DNA from: Clostridiaceae bacterium
GTDB lineage: Bacteria > Bacillota > Clostridia > Peptostreptococcales > Tindalliaceae
Length of the DNA stretch: 64,000 nt
Assembly: GCA_011390155.1 (NCBI GenBank)
Contig: JAABSW010000002.1
Coordinates: 62,001 to 126,000, forward strand
Direction of reading: 5' to 3'
Below, piece after piece: positions 42,116 to 62,737 of this stretch. The notes below the pieces were generated by a model. It saw only the letters and a program-made list of their open reading frames with translations, made no database searches and was not told the DNA's origin. Within the stretch, counting starts at the first letter, position 1. Every line of letters begins with the position of its first letter. Made by a program: the position numbers and the translations under genes.

Positions 42116-42652
42116 ATGAAAAGAAACCTGCTGTTCTTATCTATCTTGTTGTTGATCACCCTGACACTCGCTTCCTGTGCCCCTGCATCTCCCTCCGAAC
42201 CTGCCAGCGAACCCGTTACCGAGCCAGTTGTCGAAACGACTCAATCGTCTGACCAGTCAGCCGCCGCAGAACTTGCTGCCACCCAGGACGCCGCATTTCT
42301 TGACACTGTTGTCCCTGTTAATGAAAACGTGGAGTCCTATTTAGGGCAAGAAGTGACTGTTTCCGGCTTTGTGTTGTACAGAGATTCCTTTGACAACGAC
42401 GATTTCATGGTAACCCGGCTTGTGGTGGATTGTTGCATCGATGATGCCGCTGCCACAGGGTTTGTCACCCAATGGGCTGGCGATGCACCTGCTGCAGATG
42501 AATGGGTGGAAGTCACTGGGATCATCGACCAGCGTGAAGTTGAGGATATTACCACGGGCATGACGTTTATGCAACCATACTTGATTGCCAGCAGCCTTGA
42601 AATCATTGAACCTTATGAATCGGAATACTTGTTTCTCTCCACCTTTCAATAA
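42116..42652 (+). CDS. Lipoprotein with DUF1980-like C-terminal domain
   Basis: A 178-residue lipoprotein. The signal peptide ends in the lipobox LASC, with Cys21 as lipidation site. A Ser/Pro/Glu linker of about 45 residues follows, then a globular OB-like domain with GQEVTVSGFVLYRDSF, VTRLVVDCCIDDAAATGF and WVEVTGII. The CC pair in that block is typical of DUF1980/TIGR03943 (YcgQ) proteins, which are usually paired with DUF318 permeases and linked to metal uptake. Here no permease is adjacent, although one is encoded at 11411-12334. A Fur-like box overlaps its promoter. A cell-surface metal-binding role is inferred. Confidence 0.78.
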   Translation: MKRNLLFLSILLLITLTLASCAPASPSEPASEPVTEPVVETTQSSDQSAAAELAATQDAAFLDTVVPVNENVESYLGQEVTVSGFVLYRDSFDNDDFMVTRLVVDCCIDDAAATGFVTQWAGDAPAADEWVEVTGIIDQREVEDITTGMTFMQPYLIASSLEIIEPYESEYLFLSTFQ

Positions 42653-42674: not shown

Positions 42675-42710
42675 ACCTGTAGCGTGTTTTTAACTGCTGC
42701 AGGTTTTTTT
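42675..42710 (+). terminator. Terminator after the lipoprotein gene
   Basis: Stem ACCTGTAGC (42675-42683) / GCTGCAGGT (42696-42704), 9 bp with one G-U pair, followed by seven T. It isolates the radical SAM cluster downstream. Confidence 0.85.
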
Positions 42711-42728
42711 ATTTCCATTGGCTCTTCA

Positions 42729-42737
42729 TGGTATAAT
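42729..42737 (+). promoter_or_regulatory. Extended -10 promoter of the radical SAM cluster
   Basis: TGGTATAAT matches the extended -10 consensus. The transcript would start near 42744, only about 16 nt before the first ATG at 42760. The -35 region lies in the terminator T-tract and is poor. Confidence 0.6.
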
Positions 42738-42759
42738 GGGTTATTGAATGGAGGATCTT

Positions 42760-43899
42760 ATGGAACTGATCAGAATGAATCCAAAAGAAAAAATAACCTA
42801 CAAGACTCAAGTGCAGCAGTACCTGCACTTTTGCAGACGAGTGTATGATGGTAACGTCCACTACCGGGATGCCCTGAGCCAGGTACTCCGGTCCATACTG
42901 CTGGGAAAGGCTGCCATCTGTCAAGGCAGTTGGTTTCAGCCTTTACTGGTGATCGACCGGGGAGTAGTGAAAGCCGTTTGTACACTGGCAGTGGTGGACC
43001 GATTGGATCATTTGCTGCAAATCACTTATTTTGAAGCCCTTCCTCATCAGCAGCAGGCAGTGGATTTGATCCTGGAGGAAGCTGAACGTATTGCTGAGAA
43101 AAAAAGGATTCCGCAAATGTCTGTGGGACTTAATTTTCATGTGAATTACGGCCTGGGGATTCTTGCCAGCCATCATGACCAGCCCCAAAGTTTTGGCAGT
43201 GCTTATCATCCTGCCGAATATGGAGATTATTTCAGGCCTCGCGCCACGGAAATTGTTCCCCTTACCTCCTATTTAACCAACATGAAAAACTTCTGCCTTC
43301 CTGTGCCAGACAGATTAATGCAGCGCATAAAACAACAATACACCGTTCGTGTGGCTGATTTTTCTAACATAGAATCCGAAGCCCGTCTGTATACCCAGTT
43401 GAATAATCTCATCTTTGCCGATCATCCTTTTTATTTTGAGCGCAGAATCCAGGAGGACCTGGAGCTTTTTAAAAGCTTCCGCCTGTTTCTGAAACCTGAG
43501 CACCTGCTTTTTCTCGAATACAAGGACAAACCCATTGGCTTTATGTTGTGGTACCCGGATTTTAATGAGCTGATTCCACCTGGCGGTTCCCTCGGGCTCA
43601 CCACTCTACTTAAAAATTTTTTCCAGGGTTCAAAAATCCGTCGGTTTAAGATTGTTGAACTGGGCGTGTTACCACCTTACCAGAAAACCGGGGCGGTATT
43701 ATCCCTCTTCGAAGCCTGCCACAGCTTCACTAAAGGTCGCTATGACTGGTGTGAGGCTGGATGGATTTTAGAGGAAAACATTGCTTCCACCGGCTTTGGA
43801 AAACGATGGGCAGATGAACCCTATAAAAAATACCAGGTGTACCTGCTGCAACCACCCTGGGTGCAGGGAAAGGAACTGGCCCATGTTTCAGACCTATGA
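42760..43899 (+). CDS. GNAT-like acyltransferase, first gene of the radical SAM cluster
   Basis: A 379-residue soluble protein with a C-terminal GNAT-like fold: a PIGFMLWYPDFNEL strand pair near residue 265, then IVELGVLPPYQKTGAVLSLFEAC, which resembles the acetyl-CoA loop, and WILEENIASTGFGKRW with the conserved Asn-x-x-Ser ending YKKYQVYLL. The N-terminal half is a second, degenerate domain of similar type. GNAT enzymes move acyl groups from CoA or ACP to an amine. The ATG at 42760 sits 5 nt after GGAGG; the ATG at 42748 overlaps that site. Its end overlaps the next gene by 17 nt. Substrate unknown. Confidence 0.75.
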   Translation: MELIRMNPKEKITYKTQVQQYLHFCRRVYDGNVHYRDALSQVLRSILLGKAAICQGSWFQPLLVIDRGVVKAVCTLAVVDRLDHLLQITYFEALPHQQQAVDLILEEAERIAEKKRIPQMSVGLNFHVNYGLGILASHHDQPQSFGSAYHPAEYGDYFRPRATEIVPLTSYLTNMKNFCLPVPDRLMQRIKQQYTVRVADFSNIESEARLYTQLNNLIFADHPFYFERRIQEDLELFKSFRLFLKPEHLLFLEYKDKPIGFMLWYPDFNELIPPGGSLGLTTLLKNFFQGSKIRRFKIVELGVLPPYQKTGAVLSLFEACHSFTKGRYDWCEAGWILEENIASTGFGKRWADEPYKKYQVYLLQPPWVQGKELAHVSDL

Positions 43900-44866
43900 T
43901 GAAGCCCTCAGGCTTCCTGAAGCCTGGTATAACCTGACTCACTACAACCCCTGGCTGCACCCGGATAAATTATCTCTCTTGGAAAGACTTCAGCCCTGTC
44001 ACCAACAATACCATATAGACCCGGAAGCAGGCATCGCTTTTGTTTCTTATGCATTGCGGCTCAATGCCCTGTCCTTGTCGGGGAAGAAGCAGATAAAGAT
44101 CCCAGTGCGAATGGCAGGCCTTCCCCTGTCCATTGCAGAGTGTGGCTATCACGCAGACACTGCACAGGCCCGGACAACCATGGCGAACTATCTCCGGTCA
44201 CAAAAAGGCATATGGATCATCCTCAATGCCGTGGATGAATTCCCCCTGCCCATGGGTGCTACCCTTCCTTCCTGCCACCTCCCTGTCACCTGGCCGACCT
44301 TTGATGATTACATATTTTCCCTTCGCAGTCCTTACCGAAGGTGGATCAGCAGAGGAATTGAAAAAGGCAGTAATTTGAAAGTTCGACCACTTGCTCCTGA
44401 ATCTTTTTCAATGTTGCATTACAATTTGTATGTGGACGTGTTTGAGCGTTCACCTTATCAATTAGAAAAATTGAGGCTGGCTTATTTTCAACAATTTCCC
44501 GCCAATCTCTTTGAATTTTGTCTTGATGAAAAGCCGGTGGGTTTCGTCCAAGTGACAATGACCCCGTCAGTATTGACCTTTCTATTCTGCGGCTTTGATC
44601 GAACCCTGGTGACTTCCCACCACCTTTACCAAAATATGTTGCTATGGTTGCTGCGAATGGCCATCGAAAGAAAATGTTCTCTGGTGGATTTTGGTCAAAC
44701 CACGGAAGAAACAAAATCCAAACTGGGAGCTGTCATGCAACCTAAAGACATGTACCTCTCCCACAAAAACCCTGTGATCTATTCGTTGATGAGTCCCCTT
44801 GCCCGGCAGCTCAGTTACCCGGGCTATCAGGTGATCCACCATGTGTTCAAGGAGCCAACGCAATGA
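43883..44866 (+). CDS. FemAB/GNAT-like acyltransferase
   Basis: A 327-residue soluble protein. The central segment DYIFSLRSPYRRWISRGIEKG near residues 140-160 resembles the FemAB/BioF2-like pattern in which a short helix and basic residues bind the acyl donor. It is followed by LFEFCLDEKPVGFVQVTMTPSVLTFLFCGFD, a GNAT-type beta sheet, and DFGQTTEETKSKLGAVMQPKDMYLSH near the C-terminus, also common in FemAB-like proteins. It may therefore acylate an amino group or link an amino acid to a lipid. AAAGGA lies 8 nt before the ATG. The stop overlaps the next ATG (ATGA). Assignment to the exact family is tentative. Confidence 0.72.
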   Translation: MFQTYDEALRLPEAWYNLTHYNPWLHPDKLSLLERLQPCHQQYHIDPEAGIAFVSYALRLNALSLSGKKQIKIPVRMAGLPLSIAECGYHADTAQARTTMANYLRSQKGIWIILNAVDEFPLPMGATLPSCHLPVTWPTFDDYIFSLRSPYRRWISRGIEKGSNLKVRPLAPESFSMLHYNLYVDVFERSPYQLEKLRLAYFQQFPANLFEFCLDEKPVGFVQVTMTPSVLTFLFCGFDRTLVTSHHLYQNMLLWLLRMAIERKCSLVDFGQTTEETKSKLGAVMQPKDMYLSHKNPVIYSLMSPLARQLSYPGYQVIHHVFKEPTQ

Positions 44867-46233
44867 AACTGCTTATGGTAAAATGCCACCAAAAAACCCT
44901 GTTTTCATGGCTTCAGCCCATCCAGACAGAACCATATGAATTGGAAATACTGGCTTCTGTTGCCGAATCATCCGGTACAGCCTACCGTATTTTTGATGCC
45001 CTGTTTGCGAAAGAATCTTTTCAACATGTATTGCAGCAAGAAACGCCGGATGTACTGTTACTGAGTGGGTATATCACGGCGGTGGACACCATGCTGGCTT
45101 ATGCCCGTATTGCCCGAATGACAAACCCTGACCTGGTGATTGTGGCTGGAGGCGTTCATGCCTCCCTGTGTCCTGAAGATTTTATGGTGCCTGCCATCGA
45201 CCTGGTGGTTCATTCCGATGGTGCAAGGGTACTGAAACAACTCATTGATACCGGGTTTCATCGGAATGCCTGGCCTTCCATGAAGGGGTTGGCTTATTGG
45301 AATGATGGCAAGTGGGTCACCAACCCTGCCATGACCACCCCTGGAAATAGTCTTCCATCGGCAAACCGCTCCTATTTCCACCAGCATAAGCAACACACCC
45401 GATACCTTCATCACAGTCCGGTGGCCCTGCTTCAAACGGCCCTGTCCTGCCCTCATAGCTGCAACTTCTGTTATTGCCGTCATCTAAATAACGGGGTTTA
45501 TGCCCCTCGGCCCATGGACTGTGTCATTCAGGAAATAAGTCAAATCCCTTGTGATACCATATGGATCATTGACGACACCTTCCTGATTGAGCGGAAACGG
45601 GTCGAAGCATTCATGAAGGGCCTTGCCGCTGCAGGTATCCATAAGCAATTCATCGCTTATGCACGGGCGGATTTTCTGGCGGAACATGCTGACCTGGTAC
45701 CGAAACTGAAGCAAGCAGGTTTTGTGGAGTTTATCATCGGTCTGGAATCCCAGAACCCGGAAGAACTGGCTTCCTATGACAAGAAATGCACCGCTATGGA
45801 AAACCAGCAGGCGGTTCAACGCCTTCAAGAACAGGGCATACAGGTCACCGGACTGTTCATCGCTCACATCCATTACACGCCAGAAGATTTTCGGGATTTG
45901 CGTCGTTGGATGAACACCCTGCAACTCAACACTTACACGCTTTCCATTTACACCCCCATGAAGGGGCTTCCTGGCTACGAGGAGGTCCAATCGCACTTGA
46001 CCACCCATGACCCTAAAAAATGGGACTTCCTTCACTTAGTGATGGATCCTACGGGCATGAGCCGTTTTCGCTTTTATTGTGAGGTTTGGTACACCTATGC
46101 CCAGCAACTGGGACACAACAAAATCCTGCGCCAGTTTATTATTTCTTCTTTGGTGCGAATTTTTAAGTCCCGGACAGCAACGCTAAAAAACACCTTTTTG
46201 CAAAAGGTTATTAGAAAGGAATCCTCCCTATGA
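44863..46233 (+). CDS. B12-binding-type radical SAM enzyme, copy A
   Basis: A 456-residue radical SAM protein. The N-terminal ~150 residues form a Rossmann-like B12-binding-type domain (VLLLSGYITAVDTMLAYAR, VIVAGGVHASLCPEDF); the DxHxxG cobalamin-ligand motif is missing. The [4Fe-4S] ligands are Cys196, Cys200 and Cys203 in LSCPHSCNFCYCRH, with an extra Cys205. A conserved IIDDTFLIERKRVEAF block follows. The C-terminal segment WDFLHLVMDPTGMSRFRFYCEVW is shared in outline with copies B and D. It starts in an ATGA overlap and ends in another with the methyltransferase. Methylation or C-C bond chemistry is possible. Confidence 0.85.
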   Translation: MKLLMVKCHQKTLFSWLQPIQTEPYELEILASVAESSGTAYRIFDALFAKESFQHVLQQETPDVLLLSGYITAVDTMLAYARIARMTNPDLVIVAGGVHASLCPEDFMVPAIDLVVHSDGARVLKQLIDTGFHRNAWPSMKGLAYWNDGKWVTNPAMTTPGNSLPSANRSYFHQHKQHTRYLHHSPVALLQTALSCPHSCNFCYCRHLNNGVYAPRPMDCVIQEISQIPCDTIWIIDDTFLIERKRVEAFMKGLAAAGIHKQFIAYARADFLAEHADLVPKLKQAGFVEFIIGLESQNPEELASYDKKCTAMENQQAVQRLQEQGIQVTGLFIAHIHYTPEDFRDLRRWMNTLQLNTYTLSIYTPMKGLPGYEEVQSHLTTHDPKKWDFLHLVMDPTGMSRFRFYCEVWYTYAQQLGHNKILRQFIISSLVRIFKSRTATLKNTFLQKVIRKESSL

Positions 46234-46886
46234 TGAACACAGCCTCCACCCAACGCCAATGGAATTTTTGGTCTGGCTTCTATGAGAAACTATGGGTTCA
46301 ACATGTATCCCTAAAACCTACCCGCCGACAACTACTAAAAATAATGGAGCAGCTGGTGGTATCAGGAGAAGTCTGCCGTATCCTTGACGTGGGCTGCGGC
46401 ACGGGCCAGTTAATCCGTGACATTCTGTCAGCCTTTCCACAGGTCCCCTTCCATATCACCGGCATCGACTACGCTGAAGGAATGCTCAGCCAGGCGAAAG
46501 AAAATCTAAAAGACTTCACAGGTGTCAGTTTGCATCAACTGGATGCTCATGAAATTCACCAATTGGGTCTGTCCTTCGACATCATTGTCTGCACCCATTC
46601 CTTTCCTTATTATCATAACCAGTCACAAGTACTGCACCATTTTTACCAGACCCTCAAACTCCAAGGGTGTCTGATCCTGGCCCAGGCAGCTTCCGAAACC
46701 TGGTACGACAAGGTTGCCTTGTTTTTTGTCAGTCTTACCACCGGAAAAGCCCATTATCCCAACAAAGCCACCTTACACAAGATGACTGACGGGTTGTTCC
46801 ACCTGGAATCAGTGACGCCCATCCGGGAACGATGGTTCATGCCCTCTATCCTGTGCTTTCGCTATATCAGGAGGGCTCACCCATGA
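46230..46886 (+). CDS. Class I SAM-dependent methyltransferase
   Basis: A 218-residue cytoplasmic methyltransferase. Motif I is ILDVGCGTGQLIRDIL near residues 51-66, the acidic motif II is ITGIDYAEGMLSQAKENL, and motif IV is FDIIVCTHSFPYYHN near residue 115. It would methylate a small molecule or a cluster intermediate on O, N or C. It has ATGA overlaps at both ends, with radical SAM copy A before and copy B after, so strict co-translation is likely. It is the only non-radical methyltransferase of the cluster. Confidence 0.85.
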   Translation: MMNTASTQRQWNFWSGFYEKLWVQHVSLKPTRRQLLKIMEQLVVSGEVCRILDVGCGTGQLIRDILSAFPQVPFHITGIDYAEGMLSQAKENLKDFTGVSLHQLDAHEIHQLGLSFDIIVCTHSFPYYHNQSQVLHHFYQTLKLQGCLILAQAASETWYDKVALFFVSLTTGKAHYPNKATLHKMTDGLFHLESVTPIRERWFMPSILCFRYIRRAHP

Positions 46887-48277
46887 ACGTGCTGCTGATT
46901 CGTCCCCGTCCACCTGCAGAAACCATTGGACTGCAGCATGTCATGGTGTGCGAGCCTCTTGAATTGGAATATGTGGCTGCCAATGTTGATCTGTCGGAAG
47001 CCAACATCACCATCCTGGACATGATCCTGGAAAAGAAACCTTTGAAATACTTTCTTCGCCGCTACCAGCCGGAAGTGGTTGGTTTAACCGGCTATATCAC
47101 TCACATCAATGTCATGAAAAACTATGCCCGTCAAATCAAGACTTTGTTTCCCCACTGCCTGGTGGTGGTGGGCGGCGTGCATGGTGAAGTGTTGCCACAG
47201 GATCTGGAGGACCCTTCCATTGACGTTGTACTGGAGTCATACGCACTGGAAGCCTTTAACCAGCTGCTTCACAACCTCCAACAACAAAAGATGACCCACA
47301 CAACAGACAGACTTGATCTGTCTCTCATCAAAGCCCAGGTTAAAGGGGTGTACCAGCCGGGATGCCGACAGCCAAAAGCCACCAGCTTTACCCATGCCTT
47401 TCCGGATCGAACAACAACAGCCCGCTACAGAAATCGCTATTATTATATGTTCCACCGACCCTGTGCCCTGATGAAAACCTCCTTCGGATGCCCCTACCAG
47501 TGCACTTTCTGCTTCTGCCGTCACATCACCGGCGATGGGTACTACACCCGCCCCCTGGCAGAGGTGCTGGATGAGCTGGAACAAATTGGCGAAGAAGAAA
47601 TTTACATCGTGGACGACGATTTTCTGGCTTCAAAGGAGCGAGTAATGGCATTTTGCCAGGGCCTGGAGCAGCGCAAACTTCGTAAAAAGTTTCTGGTCTA
47701 CGGCCGGGCAGATTTCATTGCACACAATCCGGAAGTGATTCAGGCGTTCCGTGAACAAGGGTTGCAAGCTGTCATTGTGGGACTGGAATCTGCCCGGGAG
47801 AAAGACCTGGACACCTACCACAAGCAAACCTCCCTGCAGGAAAACGAAGCAGCTGTGCGTATCTTGCAGCAACACGATGTTGCGGTGTATGCCACCCTGA
47901 TCCTGGAACCGAACTATACCAAAAATGATTTTCGAAGTCTGGGAAAATGGTTGACAAAAATGGACCTTATTTTTGTCAATTTGCAACCCTTAACCCCTCT
48001 GCCGGGAACACCACTTTATGAAACTTACCAAAACCAGCTGATGGTACCAGTCTCTGAAGTTGAAAAATGGGACCTGGCCCATTTGGTAATTCGCCCAGGT
48101 CATATGAGTATGCGCCAATACTATATCCAGTTGCTGACACTTTATTTTAAAATTACCCTGCGGCCAAAAAATGTGATGACAATGATTCGGAAGTACGGCT
48201 TAAAAGCCACCCTGTCCCTGTCCATTGGCAGCAGCCACATCACACGTCAGTACATAAGAAAAATCCTGAGAGGATAA
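46883..48277 (+). CDS. B12-binding-type radical SAM enzyme, copy B
   Basis: A 464-residue paralogue of copies A and D. The N-terminal domain starts MNVLLIRPRPPAETIGLQHV and contains VVGLTGYITHINVMKNYAR and VVVGGVHGEVLPQDL, with no DxHxxG histidine. Ligands of the radical SAM cluster are Cys203, Cys207 and Cys210 in FGCPYQCTFCFCRH. A following IVDDDFLASKERVMAF block is conserved in the paralogues. The C-terminus WDLAHLVIRPGHMSMRQYYIQL is also shared. The ATG at 46883 has AGGAGGG upstream and overlaps the methyltransferase stop by 4 nt. It precedes copy C by 6 nt. Confidence 0.85.
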   Translation: MNVLLIRPRPPAETIGLQHVMVCEPLELEYVAANVDLSEANITILDMILEKKPLKYFLRRYQPEVVGLTGYITHINVMKNYARQIKTLFPHCLVVVGGVHGEVLPQDLEDPSIDVVLESYALEAFNQLLHNLQQQKMTHTTDRLDLSLIKAQVKGVYQPGCRQPKATSFTHAFPDRTTTARYRNRYYYMFHRPCALMKTSFGCPYQCTFCFCRHITGDGYYTRPLAEVLDELEQIGEEEIYIVDDDFLASKERVMAFCQGLEQRKLRKKFLVYGRADFIAHNPEVIQAFREQGLQAVIVGLESAREKDLDTYHKQTSLQENEAAVRILQQHDVAVYATLILEPNYTKNDFRSLGKWLTKMDLIFVNLQPLTPLPGTPLYETYQNQLMVPVSEVEKWDLAHLVIRPGHMSMRQYYIQLLTLYFKITLRPKNVMTMIRKYGLKATLSLSIGSSHITRQYIRKILRG

Positions 48278-48283
48278 ACTTCC

Positions 48284-49636
48284 ATGACCAACAAGAAAAA
48301 AGAACTCATACCCATTGCCCATAAAAAGATCTTGTTTATCCAGTCCACCCCCTATGCCCCAGCAGGACAGCCTATTAAAAAGAAAAAACTATACTTTGTG
48401 GGGCTGGCACTGCCCCTGTTGGCAGCCCTGACACCCGACCACTGGCAGGTGGACGTCTGCCTGGAAACCATTGAAGATATTCCCTGGGACACGGATGCAC
48501 AGGTGGTGGCCATCGGTGGTATGGGCCATGCCATTGTCAGGTCAAAGGACATTGCCGCAGCTTTTAAAGAACAAGGCAAGACGGTGATCATGGGTGGTTA
48601 CATGGCAAGCATGATGGCAGACGAGGCAAAACAATACTGTGACAGCGTGGTCATCGGCGACGCTGAACCGGTGTGGCAGCAGGTAATCAAAGACCTGGAG
48701 CAGGGAAATTTGCAGCCCTTCTATGAGAAACCTCTTGTGGATTACACCACACCCCTGCCCCGCTTTGACCTGATCCTGGACAAACCCATCGGCGATTTTC
48801 TCCCGGTACAAGCCGGTCGGGGCTGCCCCAACACCTGTAGTTTTTGTTCTGTTTACTGCCTCTACAAAGGCCGTTACCACCAGCGAAAGCTGGAAGAGGT
48901 AATGCGGGATATTGAACAAGTGAAGACGCTTGGTTTTAACAAGTTTCTGCTGCTTGATGACAACATCGCCGCCAGCCGGGATTACCTGCTGGCCCTGGCA
49001 GAAGCCATCACACCCCTGGGGATGAAATGGTTCTCCCAGTGTGACATCACCATCGGTGACGACCCTGTGCTACTGAAGTCCCTGGCAAAAAGCGGCTGCA
49101 TTGCCCTTTCTTTTGGGCTGGAGAGCATCAGTGCTGAAAGTCTACAATCTATGGACAAGGGATGGGCCAACCCTGCCCGCTACCGGAAACTGATGAAGAA
49201 TATCCAACAGGCAGGCATTGATGTGTCCACGGAAATGGTGGTGGGGGCCGACGGGGACACCCTGGCTTCCATCGCAGATACCGCTGAATTTATTGCTTCA
49301 ACCGGTGTGGTTGTCCCCCGGTTCTACATCCTTACTCCCATACCTGGCACAGCTTTTTTTGATAAGATGAAACAACAGGGGCGAATTGTGAAGGATGATA
49401 TCTACGCTTATAATGGTACGGAAGCTGTGCACCAACCATTGCACATGACCCCGGAAGAATTGACCCAGGCTTACTGGAATCTGTATGAAAAGGTGTTTTC
49501 CCTTTCCTCCATTGTGAGACGCACTTTTTTTCGACCGGGAGCACTAAGAAAACTGCCCCTTACGCTGTTTTATGTTTCAGTTAACCTGTTTTACCGCTAC
49601 CAGATCAAGCGGCGCATACCCCCCAACATTATTTAA
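48284..49636 (+). CDS. Radical SAM enzyme, copy C (distinct subgroup)
   Basis: A 450-residue B12-binding-type radical SAM protein, less like A, B and D. The N-terminal domain has a Rossmann-like core AQVVAIGGMGHAIVRSKDIAAAFKEQ and VIMGGYMASMMADEA, then IGDAEPVWQQVIKDLE. The cluster ligands are Cys181, Cys185 and Cys188 in GRGCPNTCSFCSVYC, and a LLDDNIAASRDYLLAL block follows. The C-terminal third has VPRFYILTPIPGTAFFDKM, typical of enzymes that act on lipid or isoprenoid substrates such as HpnJ-like proteins, although that link is weak. A C-terminal amphipathic stretch (LPLTLFYVSVNLFYRYQIKRR) could touch the membrane. It precedes copy D by 11 nt. Confidence 0.83.
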   Translation: MTNKKKELIPIAHKKILFIQSTPYAPAGQPIKKKKLYFVGLALPLLAALTPDHWQVDVCLETIEDIPWDTDAQVVAIGGMGHAIVRSKDIAAAFKEQGKTVIMGGYMASMMADEAKQYCDSVVIGDAEPVWQQVIKDLEQGNLQPFYEKPLVDYTTPLPRFDLILDKPIGDFLPVQAGRGCPNTCSFCSVYCLYKGRYHQRKLEEVMRDIEQVKTLGFNKFLLLDDNIAASRDYLLALAEAITPLGMKWFSQCDITIGDDPVLLKSLAKSGCIALSFGLESISAESLQSMDKGWANPARYRKLMKNIQQAGIDVSTEMVVGADGDTLASIADTAEFIASTGVVVPRFYILTPIPGTAFFDKMKQQGRIVKDDIYAYNGTEAVHQPLHMTPEELTQAYWNLYEKVFSLSSIVRRTFFRPGALRKLPLTLFYVSVNLFYRYQIKRRIPPNII

Positions 49637-49647
49637 GGAGAGCACCC

Positions 49648-51012
49648 ATGAAAATTCTATTGGTTCGACCACCCAGAATGAAGCAATCAGTCATCATCGG
49701 AGAATTTATGTTCAGCGAACCCATTGGCCTGGAAATAGTGGCTTCCATGCTGCAAAGCGAACATGAGATAACCTTGTTTGACATGATGGCAGACAGTTCA
49801 TCCCTTCAATCTCAGTTGAAAAAGACGAAGCCCCAGGTAGTGGGCATCACCTCTCTATGCATTGATGTGGAAGGCGTGCTGACCATCGCCCAGGAAGTGA
49901 AAGAATGTAATCCGGGCATCATCACCCTGGTGGGAGGTACCCAGGCCACCCTGGTACCGGAAGCGTTTTACCACGAAGCTGTGGACCATGTGTTTCAATA
50001 CACAACTTCCCACAATGTGCCCACACTCATGAGATATCTTGAGAACAAAACCCCTGCACCCCCGTTGGCAGGGGTATTGAGCCGTTGCCACCAGTATCAG
50101 GTGACCCCCACCGAACCGGTGAATGAATACATTTTGCCGGACCGAAAGATTACCGCACCCTACCGTCACCAGTATTCCTATTTTGGCTACCGGCCCAGTG
50201 CCATCATGGGCACCGCCAGAGGTTGCAGCAAAGCCTGCCACTTCTGCCTCCGCTGGCGTCTGGAGGGCTGCCAGGAAACTTACTTCCCCATGGAAAAGGT
50301 GCAGGAAGAGATCCTGTCCATTAAAGAAGACAGCGTCATGATTTTTGACAATGATTTTCTTCATAACGGGGACCGTGTCAATGAACTGTGTGATTTTCTG
50401 GAAGAAAAAAACATACGAAAAAACTGGGTCTGTTACGCCAGTGTTCACAGCATCCTTCAAAACAGGGAAGCCGTCACCCGCTTTCATGGACTGGGCTTGA
50501 AGGCGGTGCTGGTGGGCTATGAGACCTTCCAGGATGAAGAATTAAAAGATTACAACAAAAAAACCAGGCTGAAAGACCACCTGGCATGCAGTGTTTTTTT
50601 AAAGGAACTGGGGTTGGATGTCTGGGCCTCTTTTATGGCTCACCCTGACTGGACCCGGGAAGATTTTTCACGACTTCGTCGACACATCCGCCAGCTTAAC
50701 CCGGAAATCACCAGCATTTCACCCCTGACCCCCTTCCCCACCTTACCCCTTTACAAAACCTACGAAGACAGACTGCTGTACGGGAAAGAAGAGTACTGGG
50801 CCTGGAGCTTCGGCCAGGTGATGATCAGGCCTTCACAAATGACCTTGCGTCAATATTACTGGGAGCTGCTGAAAACCAACCTGTATGTCAACGTGGTGAG
50901 TAACAGCTTGCCTTATGTGATCCGGAAATTTGGCTGGGCCAGTTTGCTGAGGTTGACACGGGGCTCTTTTGTGTTGTTAAAAAGATACGTTTCGCTTATG
51001 CGCAACGCTTAG
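49648..51012 (+). CDS. B12-binding-type radical SAM enzyme, copy D
   Basis: A 454-residue paralogue of copies A and B. It starts MKILLVRPPRMKQSVIIGEF; the Rossmann-like domain includes VVGITSLCIDVEGVLTIAQ and ITLVGGTQATLVPEAF. The cluster ligands are Cys193, Cys197 and Cys200 in ARGCSKACHFCLRW, without the fourth cysteine of A and B. The motif IFDNDFLHNGDRVNEL corresponds to the DD-FL block of the others. The C-terminal VMIRPSQMTLRQYYWELLKTN matches copy B closely. AAGGAGAG precedes the ATG. It ends the cluster; no clear terminator follows before the argH promoter 67 nt later. Confidence 0.85.
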   Translation: MKILLVRPPRMKQSVIIGEFMFSEPIGLEIVASMLQSEHEITLFDMMADSSSLQSQLKKTKPQVVGITSLCIDVEGVLTIAQEVKECNPGIITLVGGTQATLVPEAFYHEAVDHVFQYTTSHNVPTLMRYLENKTPAPPLAGVLSRCHQYQVTPTEPVNEYILPDRKITAPYRHQYSYFGYRPSAIMGTARGCSKACHFCLRWRLEGCQETYFPMEKVQEEILSIKEDSVMIFDNDFLHNGDRVNELCDFLEEKNIRKNWVCYASVHSILQNREAVTRFHGLGLKAVLVGYETFQDEELKDYNKKTRLKDHLACSVFLKELGLDVWASFMAHPDWTREDFSRLRRHIRQLNPEITSISPLTPFPTLPLYKTYEDRLLYGKEEYWAWSFGQVMIRPSQMTLRQYYWELLKTNLYVNVVSNSLPYVIRKFGWASLLRLTRGSFVLLKRYVSLMRNA

Positions 51013-61243: not shown

Positions 61244-62737
61244 ATGACTGTCAAATTTTGTGGAGAATGCGGCCACCCACTGGAGCCTGAAAGTCAATTT
61301 TGTGGGGAGTGTGGTTGGAAAGTGCCAAAGCAGGATGAAACAGAAGCAAGCACTGTTGAACAACCTGCTGAACAACCTCTTCAACAACCTGTTCAGCCGC
61401 CTATTAAAGAACCACCTGCTTCTTCAATGAACCAAACAGACCAAAAACCCTGGCAACCTCAACAAAGGGAACACAATCCTTTCAAATCATTTTCCCAGGC
61501 TGTAAATCAGGGAACCCAGCATCAGTGGAAAGGTGAAGGCAGTGGAGGGCAGACAAGAGCTGATCCCCACCCATCAGCCAAGGATACGGCCGCACCTCCC
61601 CCGTCTGCTTCGCCTGTAACAATGTCGCCACAGCCTTCTGCTTCAAACCCCCGACACCCTGGGGCAATCCGGCAGAAAACTTCTGTGCATCCGGGAAATC
61701 AAGGAGCCATGCGCGGCGCCCCCGGTTCAGTAAAAAAGAAACCCATTGCCTTGATTGTGGGCGGAATCCTTCTGATACTCATTTTGGCAGCTGGTGCCAT
61801 GTTCTTCCTGGGAGATAGAAACAACCCTGGCGAAACCGGTAGTGCCGCCTCATCTGGTTTGTTTTCAGGAGGCATCTCACCGGAAAGCTTAGATGGCAAC
61901 TGGTTTTCAGATTTTACACCCCTTTCTGTTACACTTAATGACGAGGTTGTCCCAGAATACAATGTCATGATTGGCCGCACCACCAGTACCCAGATGAACT
62001 TGTCCATGAACAGCGACGGCACGGGATCAGCTTCTTTCCAGGGCAGCAGTTATGGCTATGAATTTTCCAGCGAAGCCGAGGTCATTTTGAATAATAATCA
62101 ACTCCTTGTTCGTTACCACGACCCTGAAACGGGTTACCAATTGGAGTACACAGGTACTGTGGCCAACGACGGAGATGGATACTTCGTAACAGGAACCTAC
62201 GAAACTGTCATGGCAGAATCCGGGGTGATCCCTGGAGAGCTTCGTGTCAAAGGCTCCTGGGAATCCTATACGGTGCAGGCCCGTGTGGGAGAGGAACTGA
62301 ACACCACCGGCGCAAAAACCGACACCACCCTGGCAGACCTGCAGGGTGAGTGGTCTGGATCACTGGTTTTTGATGACTTTGTCATTAGAAACGCACCGCC
62401 GGGCAGTGAAGAGGAAGTGCAGGCATTTCAGGAAGAAGTCATCGGCAAGGAATCAACCTGTACCCTGCATTTTCAGGATGATACCTTTTTCATGACCTTT
62501 GTTTTCCCAGATGGAACCGAAGATGTATTGGATGAATTTCCACCCATCACCCTGGAAAACGGAGTGTTCTCAGTGGCTTCTGCCAGTTCTCCCAACGACC
62601 GGGACAATTTCCGAATTGATGTGTACGGAGTGGTGAAGGACACTGGCATGCAAATGATTGAGGGAGGTTTTACCTTTATAGCAGCCGAAGGCGGCTCAGA
62701 TTTCGAAATGAAAGCCAGCTTTCAAGTGACCAAATAA
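61244..62737 (+). CDS. Zinc-ribbon membrane protein with beta-rich extracellular domains
   Basis: A 497-residue protein of the same architecture as the preceding gene. A zinc ribbon at residues 6-23 (CGECGHPLEPESQFCGEC) is followed by about 130 residues rich in Pro, Gln and Ser. One transmembrane helix lies near 166-188 (IALIVGGILLILILAAGAMFF). Two beta-rich domains follow outside: LDGNWFSDFTPLSVTLND and LQGEWSGSLVFDDFVIRN, a repeated G-x-W-S opening reminiscent of lipocalin-like or META-like folds. GGAGG lies before the ATG. It is 56 nt after the zincin gene and 19 nt before lemA. Function unknown. Confidence 0.8.
   Translation: MTVKFCGECGHPLEPESQFCGECGWKVPKQDETEASTVEQPAEQPLQQPVQPPIKEPPASSMNQTDQKPWQPQQREHNPFKSFSQAVNQGTQHQWKGEGSGGQTRADPHPSAKDTAAPPPSASPVTMSPQPSASNPRHPGAIRQKTSVHPGNQGAMRGAPGSVKKKPIALIVGGILLILILAAGAMFFLGDRNNPGETGSAASSGLFSGGISPESLDGNWFSDFTPLSVTLNDEVVPEYNVMIGRTTSTQMNLSMNSDGTGSASFQGSSYGYEFSSEAEVILNNNQLLVRYHDPETGYQLEYTGTVANDGDGYFVTGTYETVMAESGVIPGELRVKGSWESYTVQARVGEELNTTGAKTDTTLADLQGEWSGSLVFDDFVIRNAPPGSEEEVQAFQEEVIGKESTCTLHFQDDTFFMTFVFPDGTEDVLDEFPPITLENGVFSVASASSPNDRDNFRIDVYGVVKDTGMQMIEGGFTFIAAEGGSDFEMKASFQVTK

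Follow-up and report, generated by a model that had tools for sequence, protein, structure and literature searches.

A cluster of seven genes in the genome of a Clostridiaceae bacterium (Tindalliaceae; assembly GCA_011390155.1) is a real, conserved, and apparently undescribed biosynthetic cluster, and its product likely falls among the N-acylated amino lipids, with a membrane lipid and a diffusible N-acyl metabolite as two live readings. The window, that is, the whole 64,000-nucleotide (nt) stretch analyzed, covers positions 62,001 to 126,000 of the forward strand of contig JAABSW010000002.1, and the cluster occupies window positions 42760 to 51012 as seven open reading frames (ORFs), named A to G, all on the + strand. 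They encode a predicted N-acyltransferase (A), a FemAB-like transferase (B), an S-adenosylmethionine (SAM) methyltransferase (D), and four radical SAM proteins (C, E, F, and G). We consider the case evenly balanced for the locus being a single operon that makes a lipoamide (an N-acylated amino lipid) not described before, the carbon skeleton of which radical enzymes would alter at the cytoplasmic membrane. An earlier reading made from the sequence alone had proposed an N-acylated or lipid-derived metabolite, or a modified membrane lipid, tailored by several radical steps; this gains from the placement of A in the superfamily of bacterial ceramide synthase (bCerS) and YghO and from variant clusters that carry phosphatidylserine decarboxylase (PSD) and FeeM genes, and it is corrected in that F has no detectable sequence likeness to Tes and that C, E, and G, although nearest to HpnR, fall well short of its cut-off. 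A literature search, with subscription journals mostly outside its coverage, found no publication on such a cluster.

The genes of this cluster travel together. Among 98 relatives, A and F were both present in 16 of 16 genomes and both absent in 82 of 82 (Fisher p 1e-18, relatedness ignored). The 16 relatives with a strong match to A had the full set in each A locus, except for G097, in which G lies on another contig. In the 31 F-positive genomes, B was always found (31/31), the core A to F stood together, and G was present in 29. Gene G is regarded as accessory because it is missing from 2 of these 31 genomes and lies apart from the cluster in two more (G097 and G526). Searches with E recovered nine named relatives, each in a locus with the set: Alkaliphilus transvaalensis, Clostridium tunisiense, Youngiibacter fragilis, Sedimentibacter hydroxybenzoicus, two Acidaminobacter genomes, and metagenome-assembled genomes (MAGs) of a Tissierella, a Desulfosporosinus (where the end of the locus cuts off G), and an organism from the Soudan mine. 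About 28 genomes with the cluster were read through, and the genes always lay on one strand, mostly in the order ABCDEFG, with ABDEGCF, BACDEGF, ABGCDEF, and DEFABGC as variants. These counts identify A to F as the core of a genuine co-inherited gene cluster; G, counted in the seven-gene set of the sequence-only reading, is an accessory member. The gene order that this reading wished to see compared across Clostridia is largely kept and sometimes shuffled; homologs scattered without neighbors, or a match of the whole set to a cluster of known product, were looked for and not found.

The cluster is rare. It was carried by only 18 of 254 good-quality genomes in a sample of the order and by 8 of 398 in a sample of the phylum, and it is therefore viewed as a cassette and not as a housekeeping locus. 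No conserved flanking genes recurred, apart from antisense ORF shadows, ATPase-type genes, and lineage-specific neighbors. The Desulfosporosinus MAG (L032) pairs with Youngiibacter in the C, E, and F clades despite their distant taxonomy, which suggests that the cassette moved laterally or that the MAG contig was misbinned. An apparent fusion of E and F in L043 was rejected as an assembly gap (a run of N). A full ABCDEFG cluster also lies on the 2.63-Mb Acetoanaerobium noterae sequence NZ_CP154629.1 (L070), which is filed as "plasmid pTPELB2" and is almost certainly the chromosome.

Gene A (42760 to 43899, + strand) encodes a 379-amino-acid (aa) protein that matches no Pfam domain and has no meaningful NCBIfam match; profile alignment and a predicted model place it among the tandem-GNAT N-acyltransferases of the bCerS/YghO superfamily. 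Comparison by hhalign with Escherichia coli YghO gave a probability of 99.2 and an E value of 2e-19 over 348 columns (full length), and comparison with a Pseudomonas plasmid protein gave a probability of 99.4 and an E value of 7e-22 over 348 columns (tblastn E value, 2e-6). The Pseudomonas protein is 64% identical to YghO, and its gene adjoins those for an acyl-AMP ligase, a phosphopantetheine carrier protein, an epimerase/dehydratase, and an aminotransferase I/II of the serine palmitoyltransferase (SPT) type. The predicted model of A (pLDDT 93.7) has tandem-GNAT proteins as its top structural matches (Z 20 to 23), with N-myristoyltransferases further down the list (Z 15). A strict C-terminal pattern, ExxWILxxN...Y..Y, occurs in the window copy of A, in 10 of the 24 other cluster copies, in YghO, and in the Pseudomonas copy. 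In dihydroceramide synthesis, CC_1154 and yghO are the genes named for the acyl-CoA N-acyltransferase step (aca; PMC9386255), and bCerS is a cytoplasmic peripheral membrane protein (PMC11087976; PMC11324152).

On the strength of these alignments, A is a remote full-length relative of bCerS and YghO within an N-acyltransferase superfamily and by descent a candidate long-chain N-acyltransferase. The likeness to bCerS/aca (CC_1154, YghO) lies in tandem-GNAT homology over the full length, with a C-terminal ExxWILxxN...YK motif that only part of the set carries; the differences are an identity of about 20%, the lack of SPT, acyl carrier protein, CerR, and acyl ligase partners, and another phylum and gene context. 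The annotation of yghO in E. coli MG1655 (b2981; L050:4044-5216) as a putative DNA-binding transcriptional regulator looks wrong, given its 64% identity to the acyltransferase in the Pseudomonas sphingolipid gene cluster and its listing as aca (PMC9386255).

Three of the radical SAM proteins, C (44863 to 46233), E (46883 to 48277), and the accessory G (49648 to 51012), all on the + strand, belong to the B12-binding radical SAM class, with both PF02310 and PF04055 above cut-off. The nearest curated family is HpnR (TIGR04367), with 138 bits for C, 176 for E, and 168 for G, all below its cut-off of 650 bits; BchE (TIGR02026) ranks second with 80 to 129 bits, below its cut-off of 481 bits. Weak matches to the families ApyD and rSAM_ocin_1 were also seen. 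The CxxxCxxC motif is intact in every sequence compared (C, 23/23; E, 24/24; F, 24/24; G, 20/20). In a tree of 63 radical SAM proteins, which is rooted for drawing only and has long HpnR and Aureibacter branches, C, E, F, and G each form one clade (100/99 or better), and C, E, and G together form one clade (100/99) that adjoins HpnR and not BchE. According to this topology, a single HpnR-like B12 radical SAM enzyme was duplicated long ago to give C, E, and G. They resemble the hopanoid C-3 methylase HpnR in family and domains and would, like it, act on a hydrophobic substrate; they differ from it in their scores, in being three paralogs instead of one, and in the genomes that hold them, as squalene-hopene cyclase (TIGR01507) was over cut-off in none of 20 carriers; the HpnR that was compared also lacks the basic C-terminal tail seen in C, E, and G. 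Hopanoid methylation was rejected on this cyclase result. CobS was above cut-off in 19 of 20 carrier genomes, and cobamide synthesis is likely to be available to the carriers, judging from the presence of genes and with cobalamin binding by C, E, and G as a prediction.

The fourth radical SAM protein, F (48284 to 49636, + strand), represents a family distinct from C, E, and G that appears AprD4-like by fold. It has PF04055 and no Pfam B12-binding hit, and the shape of a B12 domain is present only in the predicted model (pLDDT 88.5). The closest solved structure is AprD4 (Z 30.9; root mean square deviation 2.8; 387 residues; 18% identity), which is also the best sequence match in the PDB. F is the most conserved member of the cluster, its orthologs sharing 57 to 71% identity across the order sample and 58% or more across the phylum sample, and no weaker match passed the thresholds used in either. 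In the tree it stands in a separate clade that also holds solitary radical SAM proteins from Synechocystis, Paraclostridium, Treponema, and Aureibacter, along with five Citrobacter plasmid proteins. Although F shares its fold with the 1,2-diol dehydratase AprD4, it reaches 63 bits against a cut-off of 500 (NCBIfam NF033070), and the aminoglycoside context is absent. The membrane-spanning lipid synthases Mss and Tes are radical SAM enzymes as well, working on the lipid chains of anaerobic organisms; acyltransferase and B12 partners set the present cluster apart from those systems. Tes-like coupling by F is not supported, as neither the sequence matches of the F profile in the PDB, taken up to an E value of 10, nor the 50 fold matches listed included a Tes chain. 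The Citrobacter proteins, at 29 to 32% identity to F, lie on Citrobacter portucalensis plasmid NZ_CP134684.1 (L066:9717-21812) with genes for a GH3-like ligase, a GNAT protein, a PAP2 phosphatase, and a fatty acid desaturase, apparently another undescribed radical SAM cluster of lipid-like content.

The two remaining genes encode transferases. B (43883 to 44866, + strand; 327 aa) is a FemAB/Acetyltransf_6-like protein that matches PF13480 with an E value of 5e-4, slightly below the gathering score, and has a conserved GQTxEETKxKLG sequence. D (46230 to 46886, + strand) is a class I SAM methyltransferase (PF13649, 6e-18). In two Acidaminobacter genomes, D is fused to E (L030:9137-11359 and L033:9206-11431), a natural sign that D and E may act together. 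The enzyme content predicted earlier agrees with these assignments for the GNAT-like protein (A, by its model) and the FemAB/GNAT-like protein (B) and for the single class I methyltransferase (D); four B12-binding-type radical SAM proteins had been counted, a label that is secure for C, E, and G, whereas F has PF04055 alone and the domain shape only in its predicted model.

Hints of a lipid product come from variant clusters. Three loci outside the order (L062, L064, and L065) have two adjacent genes between F and C, encoding a PSD and a FeeM-type N-acyl-amino-acid synthase; scores in L062 and L064 were 155 to 158 bits for PSD (cut-off 22) and 43 to 48 bits for FeeM (cut-off 27), with near-identical copies in L065. 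The cluster PSD looks dedicated because the genomes with it hold another PSD elsewhere. The likeness to the FeeM systems is confined to a FeeM-domain gene in these three variants; the window cluster has none, and radical enzymes are not known to belong to fee clusters. Three other clusters (L041, L043, and L045) have an inserted YaeI-like metallophosphoesterase. In addition, the last 60 residues at the C terminus of C, E, F, and G have a mean net charge of +6 to +11, with controls from the window at -13 to +5, which is consistent with membrane docking and not specific to it.

The layout of the locus fits a single transcription unit. The junctions are -17 nt (A-B), -4 nt (B-C, C-D, and D-E), +6 nt (E-F), and +11 nt (F-G), and every junction of the same-strand series given by the sequence-only reading was reproduced. 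The intrinsic terminator of the upstream lipoprotein gene (42675 to 42711, + strand) folds at -15.7 kcal/mol (z -4.78) and has a T-run; none of 200 shuffled sequences was equally stable, and it sets the cluster apart from that gene, as the same reading had it. Its extended -10 promoter was likewise recovered, as the element TGGTATAAT (42729 to 42737, + strand), with GGAGG at 42750 to 42754 between it and the start of A. In the sister species that is the other member of the genus with the cluster (L034), TGGTATAAT is identical and stands at an identical 22-nt distance from the ATG, again behind a hairpin and T-run, the hairpin being different from that of the window. The promoter claim rests on this conservation, because sites in a generic promoter and terminator scan were no more numerous than in shuffles. 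No terminator is visible downstream of G before argH. Riboswitch control of the cluster was rejected, since Rfam matched nothing in the window and, across seven loci, nothing immediately upstream of the cluster; in L027, a flavin mononucleotide (FMN) riboswitch lies just downstream of the cluster. The upstream lipoprotein gene (42116 to 42652) encodes a DUF1980 C-terminal/TIGR03943 domain, and the cluster of the sister species is likewise preceded by a similar gene end.

From these assignments we infer a pathway, including its substrates, the order of its steps, and the assignment of methylase roles. A would transfer a long acyl chain onto an amine, as in bCerS, to give a fatty amide, and B may attach another acyl or aminoacyl group. 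The growing scaffold would next be taken up by C, E, and, in genomes that have it, G, one after another and each at a different carbon; C-methylation of unactivated positions with methylcobalamin is the most likely reaction. F would contribute a different radical step, for which an AprD4-like deoxygenation or dehydration is the best guess, and D an O- or N-methylation, probably in step with E and perhaps channeled. In some lineages, the headgroup might be further trimmed by the dedicated PSD or the YaeI-like phosphoesterase. The strongly basic tails could dock the radical enzymes on the membrane.

Several observations weigh against a membrane lipid made in this way. The identity of A to bCerS and YghO is only about 20%, and the superfamily has solitary clostridial members (L047 to L049) that stand beside unrelated genes in relatives without the cluster. 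HpnR-like enzymes are not necessarily methylases, BchE being none, and the best structural neighbors of F (AprD4, MgmA, and CysS) use soluble or protein substrates. PSD and FeeM occur in only three variant clusters, two of them from one genus, and not in the window. The basic tail is weak evidence, because HpnR (+1) and BchE are without it and the Paraclostridium relative of F, in another context, has it (+11).

The product might instead be a diffusible N-acyl amino acid or amine, an antibiotic or signal with radical methylations that is no membrane constituent. The patchy distribution of the cassette and its probable lateral spread would suit such a compound, as would FeeM in three clusters, since this family makes N-acyl amino acids, and the presence of AprD4, CysS, TokK, and OxsB from antibiotic pathways among the structural neighbors of F. 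We nevertheless hold it rather unlikely: no exporter, regulator, resistance gene, carrier protein, nonribosomal peptide synthetase, or polyketide synthase is kept with the cluster, the founding family of PSD acts on membrane lipids, and the relatives of A with known roles make membrane ceramide (PMC11087976, PMC9386255). A pairing of PSD with an acyltransferase had also raised the idea of an exosortase lipid-anchor system, which was rejected with PF09721 in 0 of 20 carriers.

Membership of A in the bCerS superfamily would also accord with a sphingolipid pathway proper, in which A would be a genuine ceramide synthase and its ceramide would be decorated by the products of the other genes. This is very improbable and largely refuted by the missing SPT: 6 of 20 carriers (G043, G108, G177, G194, G400, and G464) have no SPT-type match, the other 14 have only SPT-type homologs of the kind also found in cluster-negative genomes, and acpR, cerR, and aasR are absent from the clusters. 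A pathway for the modification of a cofactor, a tetrapyrrole, or the cell wall, for which the FemAB-like character of B and the second rank of BchE for C, E, and G might speak, is improbable, because these three proteins group with HpnR and not BchE (on long branches) and the acyltransferase, PSD, and FeeM partners would have no obvious place in it. The occurrence of B12 radical SAM methylases in clusters for ribosomally synthesized and posttranslationally modified peptides (RiPPs), together with the weak ApyD and rSAM_ocin_1 matches, could point to a modified peptide whose precursor gene lies elsewhere. There is, however, no room for a precursor inside the cluster, no conserved small ORF in its wider gaps, and no conserved peptidase or exporter, which leaves a RiPP highly improbable; the earlier reading had called it unlikely.

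If the N-acylated amino lipid is a membrane constituent, the cluster might define a new class of membrane lipid for anaerobic Bacillota, an N-acyl amino lipid bearing several C-methyl branches installed by radical steps, with a bCerS-like enzyme working outside sphingolipid synthesis, and triplicated HpnR-like methylases working outside hopanoid synthesis; we put this larger proposal forward tentatively, as possible but doubtful. Geochemistry uses bacterial lipids altered by radical SAM enzymes, such as 3-methylhopanoids and membrane-spanning lipids, as markers, and the search for several of their makers goes on. The cluster, which is compact, conserved, and present in cultured organisms such as Alkaliphilus transvaalensis, Acidaminobacter hydrogenoformans, and Acetoanaerobium noterae, would be a candidate for another class of such lipids. 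With it, the bCerS/YghO acyltransferase family would also reach into organisms that lack serine palmitoyltransferase, and the three sibling B12 radical SAM enzymes of the cluster, placed in one pathway, may offer a natural set for learning what determines their specificity.

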